Positions 9,062 through 17,528 of a stretch of 44,629 nt of DNA are shown piece by piece. The position numbers and the translations under genes were made by a program. Below the pieces are notes generated by a model that saw only the letters and a program-made list of their open reading frames with translations, was not told the DNA's origin and searched no databases. Position 1 is the first letter of the stretch. Every line of letters begins with the position of its first letter. The stretch comes from Deltaproteobacteria bacterium. Its GTDB lineage: Bacteria > Desulfobacterota > BSN033 > UBA1163. The stretch spans positions 1 to 44,629 of the forward strand of contig JAGXTA010000090.1 in NCBI GenBank assembly GCA_018333535.1, written 5' to 3'.

Positions 9062-9511
9062 TTAATTCTTATTTAAAAATTCGCAGAGGATTTGGGCGGT
9101 CTTTTCTACGATGGCCGTACACTTTTCCCGGCCTCCTGAAGTCAGCCACTTCTTGTTTTCCTCGGGATCATCGAGATGAAGACCGATCAGGTCATAACAG
9201 TTTCTGCTTCCGAACTCCTTTTCGAATTGTTCCCAGAACTGTTGGCATTTCTCATAAACCTTTAGGAGAGTGTCCCTGTCTTTGGGATCGGTTCTACCCA
9301 TCTTCATTCCAATGGCCATGACCGCCGCAGTGAAGGCTCCGCAGAGCGATCCTTTCCGACCGACGCCTCCGCCAAACCCGGTAGCTAATCTGGGAATGAA
9401 GGAATCCTCATAGCCCAAAAACTCCTTGAAACTCAAGGAGACTGACTCCGCTCAGTTATACCCCTGACCAAAATAACCTTTTGCTTTCTCCGAAACCGAT
9501 TTTGCATCCAT
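9062..9511 (-). CDS. C_GCAxxG_C_C family redox protein with predicted selenocysteine (UGA, residue 20)
   Basis: A start ATG at 9511 behind GGAGGAG gives MDAKSVSEKAKGYFGQGYN, then an in-frame UGA (9454-9452), then AESVSLSFKEFLGYED. Relatives have Cys at exactly this place in GYNCAESV, so UGA replaces the first conserved cysteine. The later motif residues are present: GSLCGAFTAAVMAIG (the CGAxxG part), then C-QQFWEQFEKEFGSRNC. A perfect stem-loop lies 11 bases after the UGA (separate entry). Read through, the product has 149 residues, the usual family size. The family is thought to be redox-active; substrate unknown. It diverges from yedE, a selenium-linked gene. If UGA acted as a stop, only a 124-residue fragment from an internal ATG lacking a ribosome site would remain. 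Confidence 0.88.
9422..9440 (-). promoter_or_regulatory. Predicted bacterial SECIS element
   Basis: In the mRNA, eleven bases after the UGA codon, CUCCUUGA pairs perfectly with UCAAGGAG across a GUU loop. The eight-pair stem, a G as first loop base and 19 bases between UGA and the loop fit the spacing rules of bSECIS elements that recruit SelB in bacteria. The hairpin lies inside the reading frame, as bacterial SECIS elements must. Confidence 0.82.
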
Positions 9512-9716
9512 TTTCTCCTCCATGAGCTCTGCTTTTTGAAATTTTAGATCCATTTTAAATGAACTAAGCTTTTTTTTCAAACCACACCTTTTTCTTTATT
9601 GATTATTTCAATACGAATGGACTTCTCTATCGAAATAATCGATTTGACAGATCAAACATTTTGAATGAGGATGATACTGCATCACATTCCACAAAAAAAG
9701 GAAAAGGAGAGCAAGG

Positions 9717-10820
9717 ATGCGCAAAACAGTCCGATTCTTCGGCTCCCGATGGGGGATCATCTCAGCGGGTCTATTTGTGGGAATCTTCGCACCCCTTCTC
9801 CAGCATTGGGGAAACCCAAAAAATATGGGAATCTGTGTGGCCTGCATGGAGAGGGATATTGCAGGAGCGCTTGGTCTTCACCGGGCCGCATTGGTTCAGT
9901 ATATCCGGCCTGAGATCATCGGCTTTGTCCTCGGGGCGTTGATCGCAGCCTTTCTCTTCAAAGAATTTAAACCGAGAGGTGGTTCATCCCCTATCATCCG
10001 TTTCTTTTTAGGATTTTTCGCCATGATCGGTGCATTGGTCTTCCTCGGGTGTCCCTGGAGGGCCTTGCTCCGCCTGTCCGGAGGAGATTGGAATGCCATC
10101 GTCGGACTGGCCGGTCTTGCTTTTGGAATCTGGATCGGGATTCTCTTCCTCAAGTCGGGTTATACACTGGGTCGGTCCACGAAGGCCAGCGGATTTTCAG
10201 GGCTCGTCTTCCCTATCGTCATGGTCGTTCTCCTTCTCCTCCTGCTTTTTGCGCCCCAGTTCGGAAGAACGCCGGAAGGAACGCCCACAGGCCCGGTCTT
10301 CTTCAGCCAGAAAGGCCCGGGGTCACAACATGCTCCCTTGGTCGTCTCCCTTATCATTGCCCTTTGTGTGGGGTTTCTGGCACAGCGAACAAGACTATGC
10401 ACGATGGGAGCCATACGGGATGTTATCCTGATCCGAAACACTCACCTTCTAAGCGGCATCCTGGGAATCGTGATTGCGGCCTTCATCATGAATCTCATTT
10501 TGGGTCAGTTTAAACCAGGCTTTTCGGATCAACCCATTGCCCATGCTAACCACCTCTGGAATTTTCTCGGAATGGTCCTTTCAGGATTGGCCTTCGCATT
10601 GGCAGGAGGCTGCCCAGGAAGACAGCTCTTCCTCTCGGGCGAAGGAGATGGCGATGCTGCCATCTTTGCAACGGGGATGATTGTGGGAGCGGGGTTTGCC
10701 CACAACTTTTCAATGGCCTCCTCGCCTGCGGGCCCTGGAGCCTATGGCCCGGCGAGTGTGATCATCGGTTTAATCTTCTGCCTCGCCGTGGGATATACAA
10801 TGAAAGAAAAAATAGCCTGA
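9717..10820 (+). CDS. yedE: YedE-family (YeeE/YedE) putative selenium/sulfur transporter
   Basis: A 367-residue integral membrane protein with about nine or ten hydrophobic segments. Conserved cysteine motifs sit at membrane borders: MGICVACMERD (C40, C43), FLGCPWRALL, RTRLCTMGAIRD and LAGGCPGRQLF. These match the YeeE/YedE family, whose members pass thiosulfate or reduced sulfur species along cysteines. The subgroup next to YedF, a desulfurase and DUF3343 is linked by comparative genomics to selenium use. The start ATG has AAAAGGAGA upstream. It heads a four-gene run and shares a 205-bp divergent region with the UGA-containing selenoprotein gene. Confidence 0.9.
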   Translation: MRKTVRFFGSRWGIISAGLFVGIFAPLLQHWGNPKNMGICVACMERDIAGALGLHRAALVQYIRPEIIGFVLGALIAAFLFKEFKPRGGSSPIIRFFLGFFAMIGALVFLGCPWRALLRLSGGDWNAIVGLAGLAFGIWIGILFLKSGYTLGRSTKASGFSGLVFPIVMVVLLLLLLFAPQFGRTPEGTPTGPVFFSQKGPGSQHAPLVVSLIIALCVGFLAQRTRLCTMGAIRDVILIRNTHLLSGILGIVIAAFIMNLILGQFKPGFSDQPIAHANHLWNFLGMVLSGLAFALAGGCPGRQLFLSGEGDGDAAIFATGMIVGAGFAHNFSMASSPAGPGAYGPASVIIGLIFCLAVGYTMKEKIA

Positions 10821-10833
10821 TAAGGGGGAAAAT

Positions 10834-11049
10834 ATGTCCGAAAAGATAGATGCAAGAGGATTATCCTGTCCCCAGCCCGTCATTATGACAAACAAGAAGA
10901 TGAAGGAAATAGGGAGAGGGGCCTTTGAAGTCCTTGTCGATACCGAGACGGCAAAGGAGAACATCACCCGTCTGGCTCAACAGTCTGGATGGCAACTCGA
11001 TGTAAATGAGGAATCCGGAAATATCCGGCTCGTCCTTAAAAAGGCTTAA
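10834..11049 (+). CDS. TusA/SirA-like (YedF-like) sulfur/selenium carrier
   Basis: A 71-residue single-domain protein of the TusA/SirA fold. The active-site signature DARGLSCPQPVI places the carrier cysteine at residue 12, preceding the conserved CP. The C-terminal beta strands (WQLDVNEESGNIRLVLKK) complete the domain. Family members carry persulfide, or in selenium-linked subgroups probably perselenide, between a desulfurase and acceptors. It begins 13 bases after yedE and ends 4 bases before the desulfurase start, so the three are almost surely one transcript. Full YedF proteins have a second C-terminal DsrE-like domain that is missing here. Confidence 0.88.
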   Translation: MSEKIDARGLSCPQPVIMTNKKMKEIGRGAFEVLVDTETAKENITRLAQQSGWQLDVNEESGNIRLVLKKA

Positions 11050-11053
11050 AGCT

Positions 11054-12208
11054 ATGATCTACTTCGATAATGCGGCCACCTCCTGGCCAAAGCCTCCTGA
11101 GGTGAAAGAGGCGATGGTCAGGTTCATGGATGAGATCGGAGCCAATCCGGGCCGATCCGGACATCTGCTTTCAATTGAGGCGGCAAGAATCATCTACGAG
11201 GCCAGAGAAGCCCTGTCAACACTGTTCAACGTAAAAGACCCTTCCCGGATCGTCTTTACCCTGAATGCCACCGAATCTATTAATTTAGCCTTAAAGGGTA
11301 TGCTTCGCCCTGGCGATCATATCGTCACCAGCAGTATGGAACATAATTCAGTGATGAGACCTCTTAGGCATCTGGAGAAAAAAGGAATCGCATTATCGGT
11401 TGTTCCCTGTTTTCAAGATGGGACGTTGGACCCGAAAGAGTTGGAAAAACAAGTTCAACCTGCTACCAAGATGATTATCCTCAATCACGCATCGAATGTC
11501 ACAGGAACACTTCTTCCCATCAGAGAAGTGGGGAGAATAGCGAGAGAGCGCCACCTTCTCTTTTTAGTCGATGCTGCCCAGACAGCTGGCGCTTACCCCA
11601 TCGATGTTGAGAAGGATGGGGTCGATCTTTTAGCTTTTACCGGACATAAAAGCCTCTATGGACCCCAGGGAACAGGAGGATTGGTCATCGGAGAAAATGT
11701 CAATATTCAAGACCTGACCCCCTTGAAGCACGGAGGGACTGGAAGCCGCTCCGAATTTGAGGAACAGCCCGATTTCCTTCCCGACCGGTTTGAGAGCGGA
11801 ACGCCCAATGCGGTCGGCATCGCTGGACTCCTGGCCGGTGCCCGGTTTGTTCTGAAACAAGGAGTGGAATCTATTCGCCGACACGAAAGCCAATTGATCG
11901 AAAAGTTGATCGAAGGTTTTAAAGATATTCCTCAAATCACTCTTTACGGCCCAGAAGAGACGAAAGACCGCATCGCAACCCTCTCTTTTAATATTCAAAA
12001 CCTCTCTCCATCGGAGGTTGCATCTCTGCTGGAAGAGGAGTTCGGGATCCTCTGCAGGCCCGGACTCCACTGCGCACCCTCCGCTCATAAGACCATCGGA
12101 ACTTTTCCGAAGGGAACCGTTCGATTCAGCCTCAGCACCTTTACCAGCGATGGGGAGGTTAAACAGTCTATTGAGGCGGTTCGTCACCTATTGCATCAAA
12201 AGGACTGA
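11054..12208 (+). CDS. Class V aminotransferase: cysteine desulfurase / selenocysteine lyase-like
   Basis: Releases sulfur (or selenium) from cysteine (or selenocysteine) using PLP. The 384-residue protein starts MIYFDNAATSWPKPP, the hallmark of this group. K199 in FTGHKSLYGPQG is the PLP lysine; H105 or so lies in SSMEHNSVMRPL; C340 in GLHCAPSAHKTIGT is the likely persulfide cysteine. It belongs to the desulfurase subfamily found beside YedE and DUF3343 in selenium-using genomes. The start at 11054 follows the TusA stop by four bases; an in-frame upstream start at 11006 would run inside tusA and lacks family similarity. Specificity for Se versus S cannot be read from sequence. Confidence 0.92.
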   Translation: MIYFDNAATSWPKPPEVKEAMVRFMDEIGANPGRSGHLLSIEAARIIYEAREALSTLFNVKDPSRIVFTLNATESINLALKGMLRPGDHIVTSSMEHNSVMRPLRHLEKKGIALSVVPCFQDGTLDPKELEKQVQPATKMIILNHASNVTGTLLPIREVGRIARERHLLFLVDAAQTAGAYPIDVEKDGVDLLAFTGHKSLYGPQGTGGLVIGENVNIQDLTPLKHGGTGSRSEFEEQPDFLPDRFESGTPNAVGIAGLLAGARFVLKQGVESIRRHESQLIEKLIEGFKDIPQITLYGPEETKDRIATLSFNIQNLSPSEVASLLEEEFGILCRPGLHCAPSAHKTIGTFPKGTVRFSLSTFTSDGEVKQSIEAVRHLLHQKD

Positions 12209-12632: not shown

Positions 12633-14189
12633 ATGGAAACCTGGCGACTTTTAGATACGGGAACACGGACAGCGGCTGAAAATATGGCCCTCGATGAGGT
12701 GCTCCTCGAATTAAAAGCCCAGGAGAGAATCCCTCACACCCTCCGTTTTCTCCAATTCTCTCGTCCCTCTGTCCTGGTCGGCCATCATCAATCCGTTGAA
12801 GAAGAGGTTCGACTCGATTACTGCCGGGAGAAAGACGTCGAGATTAACCGGAGGCTGACCGGAGGGGGGGCTCTCTACTGGGGGACAATGGAGCTGGGCT
12901 GGGAGATCTATATCTCCAAAAAAGATCCCAGAATTCCGTCGAGGATCGAAGACCTTTATCGAAAGATGGGAGAGGCTTCTGCGCGCGGCCTTCAGCGTCT
13001 TGGCCTGCGGGCCTATTTCCGTCCAAGAAATGATGTGGAGGTAGGCGGCCGGAAGATTTCAGGAACGGGTGGAACCGAGCTTTCCGGAGCCATTCTGTTT
13101 CAGGGGACGCTCCTTGTCAATTTCGATGTTGACGAGATGCTCAGGGCCCTGAGAATTCCAACTGAGAAGCTTCAAGACAAAGAAATCGATTCAGTCAAAG
13201 AGCGGGTTACCTGTTTAAAATGGGAACTGGGTCGAACCCCTTCGTTATCGAGCATTAAAGATTCCCTGATCAAAGGTTTTCAAGAAACCTTTGGAGTCCA
13301 TTTTATTTCCGGTCCCTTAACTCCCGAAGAAGAATGCCTGTTGAAAGAGAAACTCCCTCATTTCTCTTCTCCGGAGCATATCTTTAAGATAAGGGAGGCC
13401 CTGCCGAGAAGAAAGACCTTGACCTCCATTCTGAAGGCCCCTGGCGGATTGATCCGGATCTCGATTGCCATCGACACGAAAACGCAGGTGATCAACCAGA
13501 TCCTGATTACCGGCGACTTTTTCGCCTATCCCAAGAGGGCGATCTTCGATCTTGAAAGCCTTCTTAAAAATTCGAAGGCCACGCCTTCCAATATCGAGCG
13601 AATCATCCGGAGCTTTTTCTCCGAGGAAAAACCCCGGATCCCCGGAGTCAAAGAGGATCATCTTATTCAGGCCGTTGAAGAGGCGCTTCAGAAAACGGAA
13701 CTTCTCCCATTTGGTTTTGGCGAGAATGAAACCCACCATCTCTTTCCCGTCTTGAAGCCATTTAAAGAAGTAAAAAAGCCCGAAGTCCTCCTCCTTCCCT
13801 ATTGCGCCAAGGAGGTGGACTGTTCCTACCGCTATCAGAGAGGCTGTGAGGAATGCGGCCGCTGTTCCATAGGGGAGGCCGTGGAAATGGCAAGATCCTT
13901 TGGGATGGACTCCATCACCATCCAGAATTATGAAGATCTTGAAACGACGCTTCGCCGGACCAAACGTTCGGGCGCTACCGGATTCATTGGCTCTTGCTGT
14001 GAGCCTTTCTATGGCAAACACAGGCCCGATTTTGAAAGGATCGGACTCCCCGGTATTCTTGTGGATGTGGAGAGAAGCACCTGTTACGACCTGAACCGGG
14101 AGAAGGAGGCTCACTTAGGAAGCTTCGAAAACCAGACCCACCTCAACCTTTCCCTTCTTGAAAGGGTTTTAAAATATGTCCACGGCTGA
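12633..14189 (+). CDS. Lipoate-protein ligase A fused to DUF116
   Basis: Attaches lipoate or octanoate to a carrier protein. Residues 1-235 are the LplA/LipB-like catalytic domain: NMALDEVLLE (17-26), RRLTGGGALYW (73-83) and the adenylate-binding lysine K141 in GRKISGTGGTEL. Residues about 245-360 match the accessory lipoate-ligase C-terminal domain. Residues about 385-490 are a DUF116 domain with nine conserved-looking cysteines (C391, C397, C405, C408, C411, C455, C456, C484 and others), likely an Fe-S module. The fusion and the following flavoprotein and radical SAM genes point to the recently described sLpl(AB)/LipS1-LipS2 lipoate assembly pathway. The gene overlaps the next by 14 bases. 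The start has no clear ribosome site, but family alignment supports it. Confidence 0.88.
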   Translation: METWRLLDTGTRTAAENMALDEVLLELKAQERIPHTLRFLQFSRPSVLVGHHQSVEEEVRLDYCREKDVEINRRLTGGGALYWGTMELGWEIYISKKDPRIPSRIEDLYRKMGEASARGLQRLGLRAYFRPRNDVEVGGRKISGTGGTELSGAILFQGTLLVNFDVDEMLRALRIPTEKLQDKEIDSVKERVTCLKWELGRTPSLSSIKDSLIKGFQETFGVHFISGPLTPEEECLLKEKLPHFSSPEHIFKIREALPRRKTLTSILKAPGGLIRISIAIDTKTQVINQILITGDFFAYPKRAIFDLESLLKNSKATPSNIERIIRSFFSEEKPRIPGVKEDHLIQAVEEALQKTELLPFGFGENETHHLFPVLKPFKEVKKPEVLLLPYCAKEVDCSYRYQRGCEECGRCSIGEAVEMARSFGMDSITIQNYEDLETTLRRTKRSGATGFIGSCCEPFYGKHRPDFERIGLPGILVDVERSTCYDLNREKEAHLGSFENQTHLNLSLLERVLKYVHG

Positions 14190-15273
14190 AATGCCTATTG
14201 CGGGATCGTACGATATTCTGATCGTCGGAGCCGGACCTGCCGGGTCAAGTGCGGCTCGTGCTGCGGCTCAAAAAGGGGCCGCTGTTCTCATGGTGGACAG
14301 GAGACAGCGGATCGGCGTGCCTGTCCAGTGTGCTGAATTTGTGCCCCGGGCTATTTCCAGTTATGTTAATTTCTCCTCAAAATGCATTGCTCAAACCGTT
14401 GAAACCATGATCACCCATCTCCCCGATCAGCGATCTTATGAGATGAAGAGCCCCGGGTTTATGCTTGATCGCTCCTTGTTTGACAAAGAGTTGGCTGCTT
14501 CAGCCGTTCTCTCCGGTGCAGAAATCTCTATGGGAACAAGGGCCATGAAATGCTCTCAGGAAGGAGTGGCCATTGAACGGGGAGGAAAACATGAATGGGT
14601 CCGGGCAAAGGTGATCATCGGTGCGGATGGAGTCCGCTCATCCGTTGCCCAATGGGCTGGATTGCCTCCCGGCAGGACAACCATTGCCCTCCAGTATGAG
14701 GTCGTTCTCCCTCATCCCCAGAATCATGTGGACATATACTTCCATAAGGATTACGAAGGAGGTTATGCCTGGTTTTTTCCAAAAGGGAAAACGGCAAATG
14801 TCGGCATAGGGGTCGTCTCTCACAGAACGTCTTCGCTCCCGAATCTGATGGAAGGTTTTCTCAATCGCCTCATTGATTTAAAAAAAATGGGCCGGATTGA
14901 GATCATCGGAAAGACAGGTGGCGCCATCCCTTGCGAAAAGCCAAGACAAACCGTTTTTAGTAACATCATGCTTGCCGGAGACGCCGCAGGACATGCCCAC
15001 CCTATTACGGGCGCGGGAATCCTCAATGCGGTCATCGGAGGGGAGATGGCCGGAAGGATTGCTGTGGAGTCATTGGCCAGAGGGGATCTCAACCATTTAT
15101 GGCAATATGAGACGGAGTGGAGGGAGGCTTTTGGAGCTTCCCTCTCTTATGGCGCTTTCAAGCGGGATTTTCTTGAAGAGAACTGGAATAAACCGGAAAT
15201 CGATTTTGAAAGCCTGATCCGAAAAACCTGGGTGGGGTTTAAAGAATATTATGAGGATCGAAGGAAAAAATAA
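14176..15273 (+). CDS. FAD-dependent geranylgeranyl-reductase-like oxidoreductase (LipT-like)
   Basis: A 365-residue flavoprotein with the dinucleotide loop IVGAGPAGSSAA (16-27), the GADGVRSSVAQ motif in the middle and GDAAGHAHPITGAGILNA near 270, where the FAD ribityl-binding Asp lies. It belongs to the geranylgeranyl reductase family, which reduces double bonds in isoprenoids. Between a lipoate ligase and paired radical SAM lipoyl synthases, the better guess is LipT, an oxidoreductase of unproven function in lipoate clusters. GAAAGGG upstream supports the ATG at 14176; an ATG at 14191, just behind the ligase stop, is possible. The 14-base overlap indicates co-translation. Confidence 0.85.
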   Translation: MSTAEMPIAGSYDILIVGAGPAGSSAARAAAQKGAAVLMVDRRQRIGVPVQCAEFVPRAISSYVNFSSKCIAQTVETMITHLPDQRSYEMKSPGFMLDRSLFDKELAASAVLSGAEISMGTRAMKCSQEGVAIERGGKHEWVRAKVIIGADGVRSSVAQWAGLPPGRTTIALQYEVVLPHPQNHVDIYFHKDYEGGYAWFFPKGKTANVGIGVVSHRTSSLPNLMEGFLNRLIDLKKMGRIEIIGKTGGAIPCEKPRQTVFSNIMLAGDAAGHAHPITGAGILNAVIGGEMAGRIAVESLARGDLNHLWQYETEWREAFGASLSYGAFKRDFLEENWNKPEIDFESLIRKTWVGFKEYYEDRRKK

Positions 15274-15275
15274 CC

Positions 15276-15426
15276 CCACCTAACCTCCCCTTACCTCAAG
15301 GGGAGGCTTCATCCTCCTCTATTCCCCCATTAAATTAAGGGGGGATGAAGGGGGGTTAAGAAGGGGATGGAAAAGGGTCAGGGTGGGGGTGAAAGAGATA
15401 ATGTAGCGTCCCGATTTAGTCGGGAC
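15276..15426. repeat. Palindromic G/C-run intergenic element
   Basis: TAACCCCACC at the left pairs with GGTGGGGGT at about 15382, enclosing CCTCCCC/GGGGAGG and CCCCCATTAAATTAAGGGGG hairpins. A separate hairpin CGTCCCGATTTAGTCGGGACG, with a three-base loop, sits just before the next gene. It resembles the purN-purL element at 2602-2747 and lies inside the lipoate gene run. Confidence 0.6.
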
Positions 15427-15440
15427 GGAAAAGGGAAAAA

Positions 15441-16460
15441 ATGAAACCAAAAACAAGTCCTGAATATATCCAGACCAGCCTCGCCGCCTCTCTCACGCTG
15501 GGTTTTCAACAGGGGCTCTTCCATCGCAATGCCAAACTGAAGGGGCTGAATCTCCTTCTCCATTACGAGGAAGGGTGCCTGGGAAAATGCCATTTCTGCG
15601 GACTTTCAAGATCGAGGCTTGAAGGACCAAAGGGAAAGACCTTCATCCGTGTGGACTGGCCCCTCTATTCGCTCGAGGAGATCATTGGAAGAACGAAGGG
15701 TAAGGACCAGATCCATCGGGTCTGCATCTCAATGATCACCCATCCCAAAGCCCTTGAAGATACGACTCATGTCATCAAAAAGATTAAAGAGGAGACCGAT
15801 CTCTTCATCAGCGTCCTCATCACACCAACTCTTATTCATAACATCGAGTCCCTCGAGGCAATGAAAAAGGCCGGAGCCGATCGGATCGGGATCGCCATCG
15901 ATGCAGTGACACCCGAACTTTTTGATCGACTGAGAGGGAAAGGCGTTAACGGCCCCCATCGCTGGGATCATTACTGGGATGTGGTCCGGATGGCCGTGGA
16001 AGTCTTCGGGAAATTCTATGTCGGAATTCATCTCATTGTGGGTCTGGGCGAAACAGAGAGGGAGATGGTTGAAGCAATCCAAAAAGGTCAGGACATGGGG
16101 GCCTACACCCACCTCTTCTCTTTTTTTCCGGAAAAAGGAAGTCCCATGCAAGACCATCCCTCCCCTCCCCTTGATCAATATCGGAAAATTCAGCTTGCTC
16201 GCTGGATCATCAATGAGGGGCTGGGCTCAATCGGCCAGATGAGGTTTGGCGAACAGGGGAAACTAGTCGATTTCGGAACTGATATTGAACCTCTTGTCGA
16301 GATGGGCGAACCCTTTATGACCTCAGGATGTCCTGGCAGGGATGGAAAAGTGGCCTGCAATCGTCCCTATGGCAATGAGCGACCTTCCGGCCCAATCCGG
16401 AATTTTCCGTTCATGCCGGCAGCCGAAGATATTGAGGAGATCAGGAAACAATTGGAATAG
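15441..16460 (+). CDS. Radical SAM protein, lipoyl synthase component (LipS1-like)
   Basis: A 339-residue radical SAM enzyme. CLGKCHFC (C46, C50, C53) binds the SAM cluster in the CxxxCxxC spacing, and the TIM-barrel features follow (ISMITHPKALED, GIAIDAVTPELFDRLRGKG, IHLIVGLGETERE). The C-terminal TSGCPGRDGKVACNRPYGNE (C297, C306) is suited to an auxiliary Fe-S cluster, the sulfur donor site expected of a lipoyl synthase. In Thermococcus and in bacteria with sHdr-linked lipoate assembly, two such proteins together do the work of LipA. The assignment rests on context: ligase-DUF116 and LipT-like genes upstream, a second radical SAM gene downstream. Which of the two is LipS1 is inferred. Confidence 0.82.
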   Translation: MKPKTSPEYIQTSLAASLTLGFQQGLFHRNAKLKGLNLLLHYEEGCLGKCHFCGLSRSRLEGPKGKTFIRVDWPLYSLEEIIGRTKGKDQIHRVCISMITHPKALEDTTHVIKKIKEETDLFISVLITPTLIHNIESLEAMKKAGADRIGIAIDAVTPELFDRLRGKGVNGPHRWDHYWDVVRMAVEVFGKFYVGIHLIVGLGETEREMVEAIQKGQDMGAYTHLFSFFPEKGSPMQDHPSPPLDQYRKIQLARWIINEGLGSIGQMRFGEQGKLVDFGTDIEPLVEMGEPFMTSGCPGRDGKVACNRPYGNERPSGPIRNFPFMPAAEDIEEIRKQLE

Positions 16461-16468
16461 TGGAAGGA

Positions 16469-16554
16469 TGGAATACTGGAATAATGGGTTTTTTCTGAAA
16501 CAAAACGCCTCTTATTATTTCACAGTTTCATCATTCCATTATTCCATCATTCCA
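16469..16554. repeat. Inverted repeat between the two radical SAM genes
   Basis: TGGAATACTGGAATAATGG (16469-16487) and CCATTATTCCATCATTCCA (16536-16554) pair at 17 of 19 positions around a 48-base loop. No gene is present. It could form a long hairpin in the transcript. Confidence 0.65.
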
Positions 16555-16568
16555 TTTTTAAGAGCGCT

Positions 16569-17528
16569 ATGCTTACTCAACTCATTCAAACTTCTTTAAC
16601 CGAACTCCAATCCGAAGCGTTCAGGCTCCGAAAGCTCCACTTTGGCAGCGAACTCACTTTCTCCATCCCCGGTACTGTTGCTTACCATGATGGTACTCTT
16701 CCTTTTCAAAAAGATCGTTTTGCGGCAATCAGCGTCACGGGATCCCATTGCGATCTCCATTGCAGCCACTGCAAAGGAAAACTCCTCGAATCGATGATCC
16801 CGGCGAATGATCCTGAGACCTTTTCCATGACAGTTGATCACCTTCGGTCCCGTGGCGCCCTGGGAATCCTGGTAAGCGGTGGAGCAAACCGTAATGGCGA
16901 AGTCCCATTGGAGAAATTTATTCCCTCAATCAAAGAGATTAAGGGAAAGGATCCCTCTTTCAAAATCATCGTCCATACAGGCCTTATCAAAAGGGAAATG
17001 GCAACGGAATTGAAAGAGGCAGGAATAGACCAGATTCTGATTGATGTCATTGGTGATAATGATACCATTCGAAAGGTTTACCATTTGGACAGGCGAGTTG
17101 AAGATTATGAAGAGACGCTCTCGATGCTCAAAGAGATCGGCCACCGGCTCGCTCCGCACATCATCATCGGCCATCACTTCGGAGAGATCAGAGGAGAATG
17201 GAGAGCACTGGAAATGGTCACCCGGGTCGGTGTGGAAACAATCGTGCTCGTCATTCTCAAGCCTCTCATAGGAAAAGATCAATTCAGAACACCAACACCG
17301 GAGGAAACTTCCAAAATCTCGGCCATCACTCGAATCCTCAATCCCGCTACTCCCATCCGGATGGGCTGCATTCGACCGGCTCATCCCTCAAAGGTGGAAA
17401 TGGAAAAAGGGGCCATCGACTCCGGTGTGAACACCATCGCCTACCCTCTTCAGGGAACGATCGACTATGCAAAAGAAATCGGCCTCGAAACCCGCTTCAT
17501 CGAGATGTGCTGTAGCCTGATTTATTAA
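16569..17528 (+). CDS. Radical SAM protein, lipoyl synthase component (LipS2-like)
   Basis: A 319-residue radical SAM protein with CDLHCSHC (C61, C65, C68) as cluster motif. GILVSGGANRNGEVPLEKF (the GGE-like SAM-binding strand), DQILIDVIGDNDTIRKVYHL and a C-terminal MGCIRPAHPSKVE with a terminal MCC complete it. Extra cysteines near the end may bind an auxiliary cluster. It follows the LipS1-like gene on the same strand and completes the ligase - LipT - LipS1 - LipS2 set. Together the two would insert sulfur at C6 and C8 of octanoyl groups on a carrier protein. No lipoyl carrier, GcvH or LbpA gene is in the window. The ribosome site is weak. Confidence 0.82.
   Translation: MLTQLIQTSLTELQSEAFRLRKLHFGSELTFSIPGTVAYHDGTLPFQKDRFAAISVTGSHCDLHCSHCKGKLLESMIPANDPETFSMTVDHLRSRGALGILVSGGANRNGEVPLEKFIPSIKEIKGKDPSFKIIVHTGLIKREMATELKEAGIDQILIDVIGDNDTIRKVYHLDRRVEDYEETLSMLKEIGHRLAPHIIIGHHFGEIRGEWRALEMVTRVGVETIVLVILKPLIGKDQFRTPTPEETSKISAITRILNPATPIRMGCIRPAHPSKVEMEKGAIDSGVNTIAYPLQGTIDYAKEIGLETRFIEMCCSLIY

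Follow-up and report, generated by a model that had tools for sequence, protein, structure and literature searches.

A conserved in-frame UGA and a SECIS-like hairpin point to a selenoprotein gene of the C_GCAxxG_C_C family

An in-frame UGA in a C_GCAxxG_C_C-family gene

The minus strand of the window (i.e. the whole 44,629-nucleotide stretch of DNA analysed here) holds a frame at 9511-9062 that translates into 149 residues with a single in-frame TGA, raising the question of whether this triplet is read as selenocysteine (Sec), ends translation, or is an error. The features that bear on this question are as follows:

9062..9523, minus strand: predicted C_GCAxxG_C_C-family selenoprotein gene, giving 149 aa from the ATG at 9511 or 153 aa from the ATG at 9523
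9454-9452, minus strand: in-frame UGA, probably read as Sec, at residue 20 (149-aa numbering), the position of the family's first conserved Cys
9509..9511, minus strand: ATG chosen as the start in an earlier, sequence-only reading, with GGAGGAG 5' of it; unconserved in relatives
9521..9523, minus strand: alternative start ATG, lying four codons further 5' and shared by 13 of 17 homologues
9422..9440, minus strand: putative bacterial SECIS (bSECIS) hairpin with an 8-bp stem and a GUU loop at 9432-9430

Translation and alignment bore out the sequence-only reading's placement of the UGA at codon 20, in the context GYN-U-AESV, where the family has its first Cys. Its assignment of the 149-residue product to the C_GCAxxG_C_C family was likewise supported by two profiles, both matched above their cut-offs over residues 18-145: PF09719 (103.1 bits; cut-off 27), with the match running across the UGA, and TIGR01909, ‘C-GCAxxG-C-C family (seleno)protein’ (83.9 bits; cut-off 47.4). 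The related profile for the DVU_1555 family C-GCAxxG-C-C protein (NF045669) scored 53 bits, far below its 103-bit cut-off. Sec forms of the family are indeed on record: the TIGR01909 name says so, a review catalogues them (PMC9312934), and a second review lists C_GCAxxG_C_C selenoproteins of ‘form 1’ and ‘form 2’ (PMC13188914). Set against the TIGR01909/PF09719 family, the predicted product carries Sec at a conserved family Cys and differs in lineage only. Across 36 aligned sequences, three of the four family Cys positions (columns 20, occupied by Sec, 57 and 105) were invariant, and the fourth (column 131) was conserved in at least 90%.

Conservation of the UGA and evolution of the flanking codons

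Homologues were sought in 99 genomes, comprising the organism's own genome and those of relatives. The close homologues numbered 17 genes, including the window's gene, from 15 genomes of the genus or family; identity within this group was 67–93%, as opposed to 44% or less outside it. Among the plasmid matches listed, none exceeded 33.3% identity. TGA occupied codon 20 in every one of the 17 close homologues. Reads showing TGC or TGT in place of the window's TGA had been named beforehand as the observation that would count against Sec, and the uniform TGA of the close homologues speaks against such a misreading. Most of the distant homologues examined had a Cys codon (TGC or TGT) at this position, and a few had TGA.

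This distribution bears on the possibility that a Cys codon was mutated in a pseudogene, or was misread as TGA during sequencing or assembly. The window is one of 192 contigs in a draft assembly, and most of the distant homologues have Cys at this position. However, a read error is excluded by the presence of TGA in all of the close homologues, and purifying selection persists on the codons to either side of the TGA, so that we consider an error or a pseudogene extremely unlikely.

The codons preceding the TGA evolve as protein-coding sequence. Their pN/pS was 0.17–0.22, and because the value for codons 2–19 (0.22) matched that of the gene body (0.22), this segment appears to be translated as protein; residues 2–19 also align with the N-terminus of the Cys-containing homologues. 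These results weigh against a reading in which the TGA is a real stop, the protein has 124 residues and starts at TTG 9436 or another internal codon, and the upstream sequence is non-coding or a leader peptide. A gene caller would report just such a 124-aa frame, but the short form would be without the invariant first Cys position, and its TTG is covered by the hairpin; taken together, a genuine stop is very improbable. The truncation to 124 residues that was anticipated from the sequence is real in that the open reading frame list contains this frame, yet it opens not at a Met, as had been thought, but at TTG 9436, inside the hairpin stem, where the family has Leu.

Some genetic-code change might also keep such a frame open, through genome-wide reassignment of TGA or a suppressor other than tRNA-Sec, and several genes of the lineage do have open in-frame TGA codons. 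Since five of the orthologues (L071, L074, L077, L079 and L080) themselves terminate in TGA, the codon is not globally reassigned, and with the full Sec machinery present (see below) the likelihood of this alternative is negligible.

The start codon was less uniform. The claim that a strong GGAGGAG precedes the true start held in part: the motif does lie 5' of ATG 9511, yet this codon is not conserved, most orthologues having ATA, ATT, GAT, GAC or another triplet there. By comparison, 13 of the 17 homologues have an ATG at a distance of exactly four codons 5' of this position, in most cases preceded by a GGAGG-like site. If translation of the window's gene began at the corresponding ATG 9523, the GGAGGAG would fall within codons 1–3. 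Either ATG, 9511 or 9523, may be the start of the window's gene, the latter position being the usual one in relatives.

A SECIS-like hairpin downstream of the UGA

The hairpin described in the sequence-only reading, an 8-bp stem with a GUU loop 11 bases past the UGA, proved exact. Its arms, CTCCTTGA (9440-9433) and TCAAGGAG (9429-9422), pair without mismatch around the loop GTT (9432-9430); the stem begins 11 nt and the loop 19 nt past the TGA, with G as the first loop base. The published bSECIS model specifies a loop of 3–9 nt whose first two bases include a G, a stem of 4–16 bp and a spacing of 16–37 nt (PMC13188914), and the window's hairpin (8 bp, GUU, 19 nt) conforms to it. A perfect 8-bp stem equally near was found for just 15 of the 1784 TGA triplets on both strands of the window. 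A search with Rfam gave no match above the gathering score near the gene.

The folding energy of the hairpin alone was unremarkable and non-significant (z of -0.9 to -1.7); it is conservation, not energy, that sets the structure beyond chance. Synonymous divergence within the hairpin codons (25–31) was 0.059 vs 0.50 elsewhere, the lowest stretch of the gene, and none of 100,000 random seven-codon sets had a value as low. Stem pairing was retained in 96.3% of cells, compared with 37–62% when the partners were slid. Covariation was thin because the stem scarcely varies: one pair alternates among G-C, G-U and A-U, amounting to a single compensatory double change (G-C to A-U), and 38–51 of 500 shuffles did equally well. 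At the level of sequence, the comparison thus confirmed the hairpin as a selectively constrained SECIS-like element.

A hairpin at this location could also act as an intrinsic terminator or attenuator instead of a SECIS, and a consensus scan did flag 9440-9422 (minus strand) followed by TTTTTGGGCT, with a TTTTT run after the stem (9440-9415 in all). The T run is not conserved, however, being GTATTTG in most relatives, whereas the stem, the loop G and the distance from the UGA all are, making a terminator very unlikely. Read error, pseudogene, TGA reassignment, internal start and terminator were each tested and rejected.

Selenocysteine machinery of the genome

A lack of selB or selC would have spoken against Sec insertion, but these two genes, along with selA and selD, were all found in the organism's own genome. 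Profile scores were 627 bits for SelA, 368 bits for SelB (the sole match over the cut-off) and 391 bits for SelD, and a tRNA-Sec with anticodon TCA (UCA) was detected at 76.5 bits.

With both the signal and the machinery in hand, our preferred reading is that the gene almost certainly encodes a C_GCAxxG_C_C-family selenoprotein whose UGA is decoded via SelB and the hairpin, to which we assign a probability of about 0.96. SelB with Sec-tRNA(UCA) would decode the UGA at 9454-9452 as selenocysteine, and the hairpin at 9440-9422 would guide this decoding, as its conservation and the complete machinery suggest.

In-frame TGA codons are also present in other genes. The SelD gene (L018, match 1501-2427) has one at KKAGUASK, so that SelD itself appears to be a selenoprotein. 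The sole other PF09719 gene found in the same genome (L082, contig C23, 8759-9190, minus strand) is ∼29% identical to the window's gene; it too has TGA in frame at this codon, and a hairpin follows. In G077, a distantly related genome from this phylum, at least two C_GCAxxG_C_C genes (L081 and L084) among six matches have TGA at this codon, which suggests that Sec forms are scattered over the family tree.

Genomic neighbourhood

Divergent to the selenoprotein gene lies a run of genes with possible ties to selenium:

9717..10820, plus strand: YedE-family putative selenium transporter, the divergent neighbour (TIGR04112, 509 bits)
10834..11049, plus strand: TusA/YedF-like small protein, 71 aa (profile match)
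11006..12208, plus strand: cysteine desulfurase family protein (TIGR01977), near but below the selenocysteine lyase SclA cut-off

This context is suggestive but not defining. YedE adjoins the selenoprotein gene in 6 of the 17 loci and tryptophanyl-tRNA synthetase (TrpS) lies nearby in 15, and a firm tie of the gene to selenium transport was dropped on these counts. The protein might itself take part in selenium handling, as a selenium carrier or sensor acting with YedE, the YedF-like protein and the desulfurase and having a Sec-ligated metal or Fe-S site; we regard this role as unlikely, the link being weak because so few loci have the YedE adjacency.

Further along the window (12633-17528) are, in a row, a lipoate-protein ligase–DUF116 fusion, a geranylgeranyl-reductase-family protein and LipS2- and LipS1-like radical SAM proteins. 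The gene order resembles the LipS1/LipS2 lipoate route, with LipS1 and LipS2 scoring slightly under their cut-offs, and the lipoate set directly adjoins the selenoprotein gene in four loci (L066, L070, L073 and L079).

Predicted structure and possible function

An AlphaFold2 model built from 36 homologues (pLDDT 95.8) has nine helices. A search of solved structures by single sequence returned nothing convincing. The model had one clear structural match, split-Soret cytochrome c (PDB 1H21), at Z 15.4 and an rmsd of 3.6 across 136 residues, the next best hit reaching Z 3.9; a profile search against solved structures retrieved the same chain (E 1.3e-4). The product is thus predicted to be all-helical, with the split-Soret cytochrome c fold but without its haem motif: the haem-binding CXXCH is absent from the 149 residues, and the split-Soret cytochrome c equivalog NF047622 scored 16.8 bits against a cut-off of 400. 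Cys residues of 1H21 align with Sec20 and Cys57 in the profile alignment, Sec replacing the first Cys in the product, and the two proteins share the helical fold at 18% identity.

The title of the 1H21 entry reports a novel iron centre, and by analogy we infer that its ligands may be the cysteines equivalent to those of the product. Sec20, together with the conserved Cys57, Cys105 and Cys131, could form a thiol/selenol redox site or a metal/Fe-S site. A Sec/Cys redox or metal site of this kind is our best guess at function, drawn from the conserved residues and the fold match.

Significance

The gene is a well-supported new member of an already known selenoprotein family, and knowledge of the C_GCAxxG_C_C family is unchanged by it. 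What it adds is a clear, conserved selenoprotein that routine gene calling would cut short, and its relatives supply a well-supported natural bSECIS for testing.
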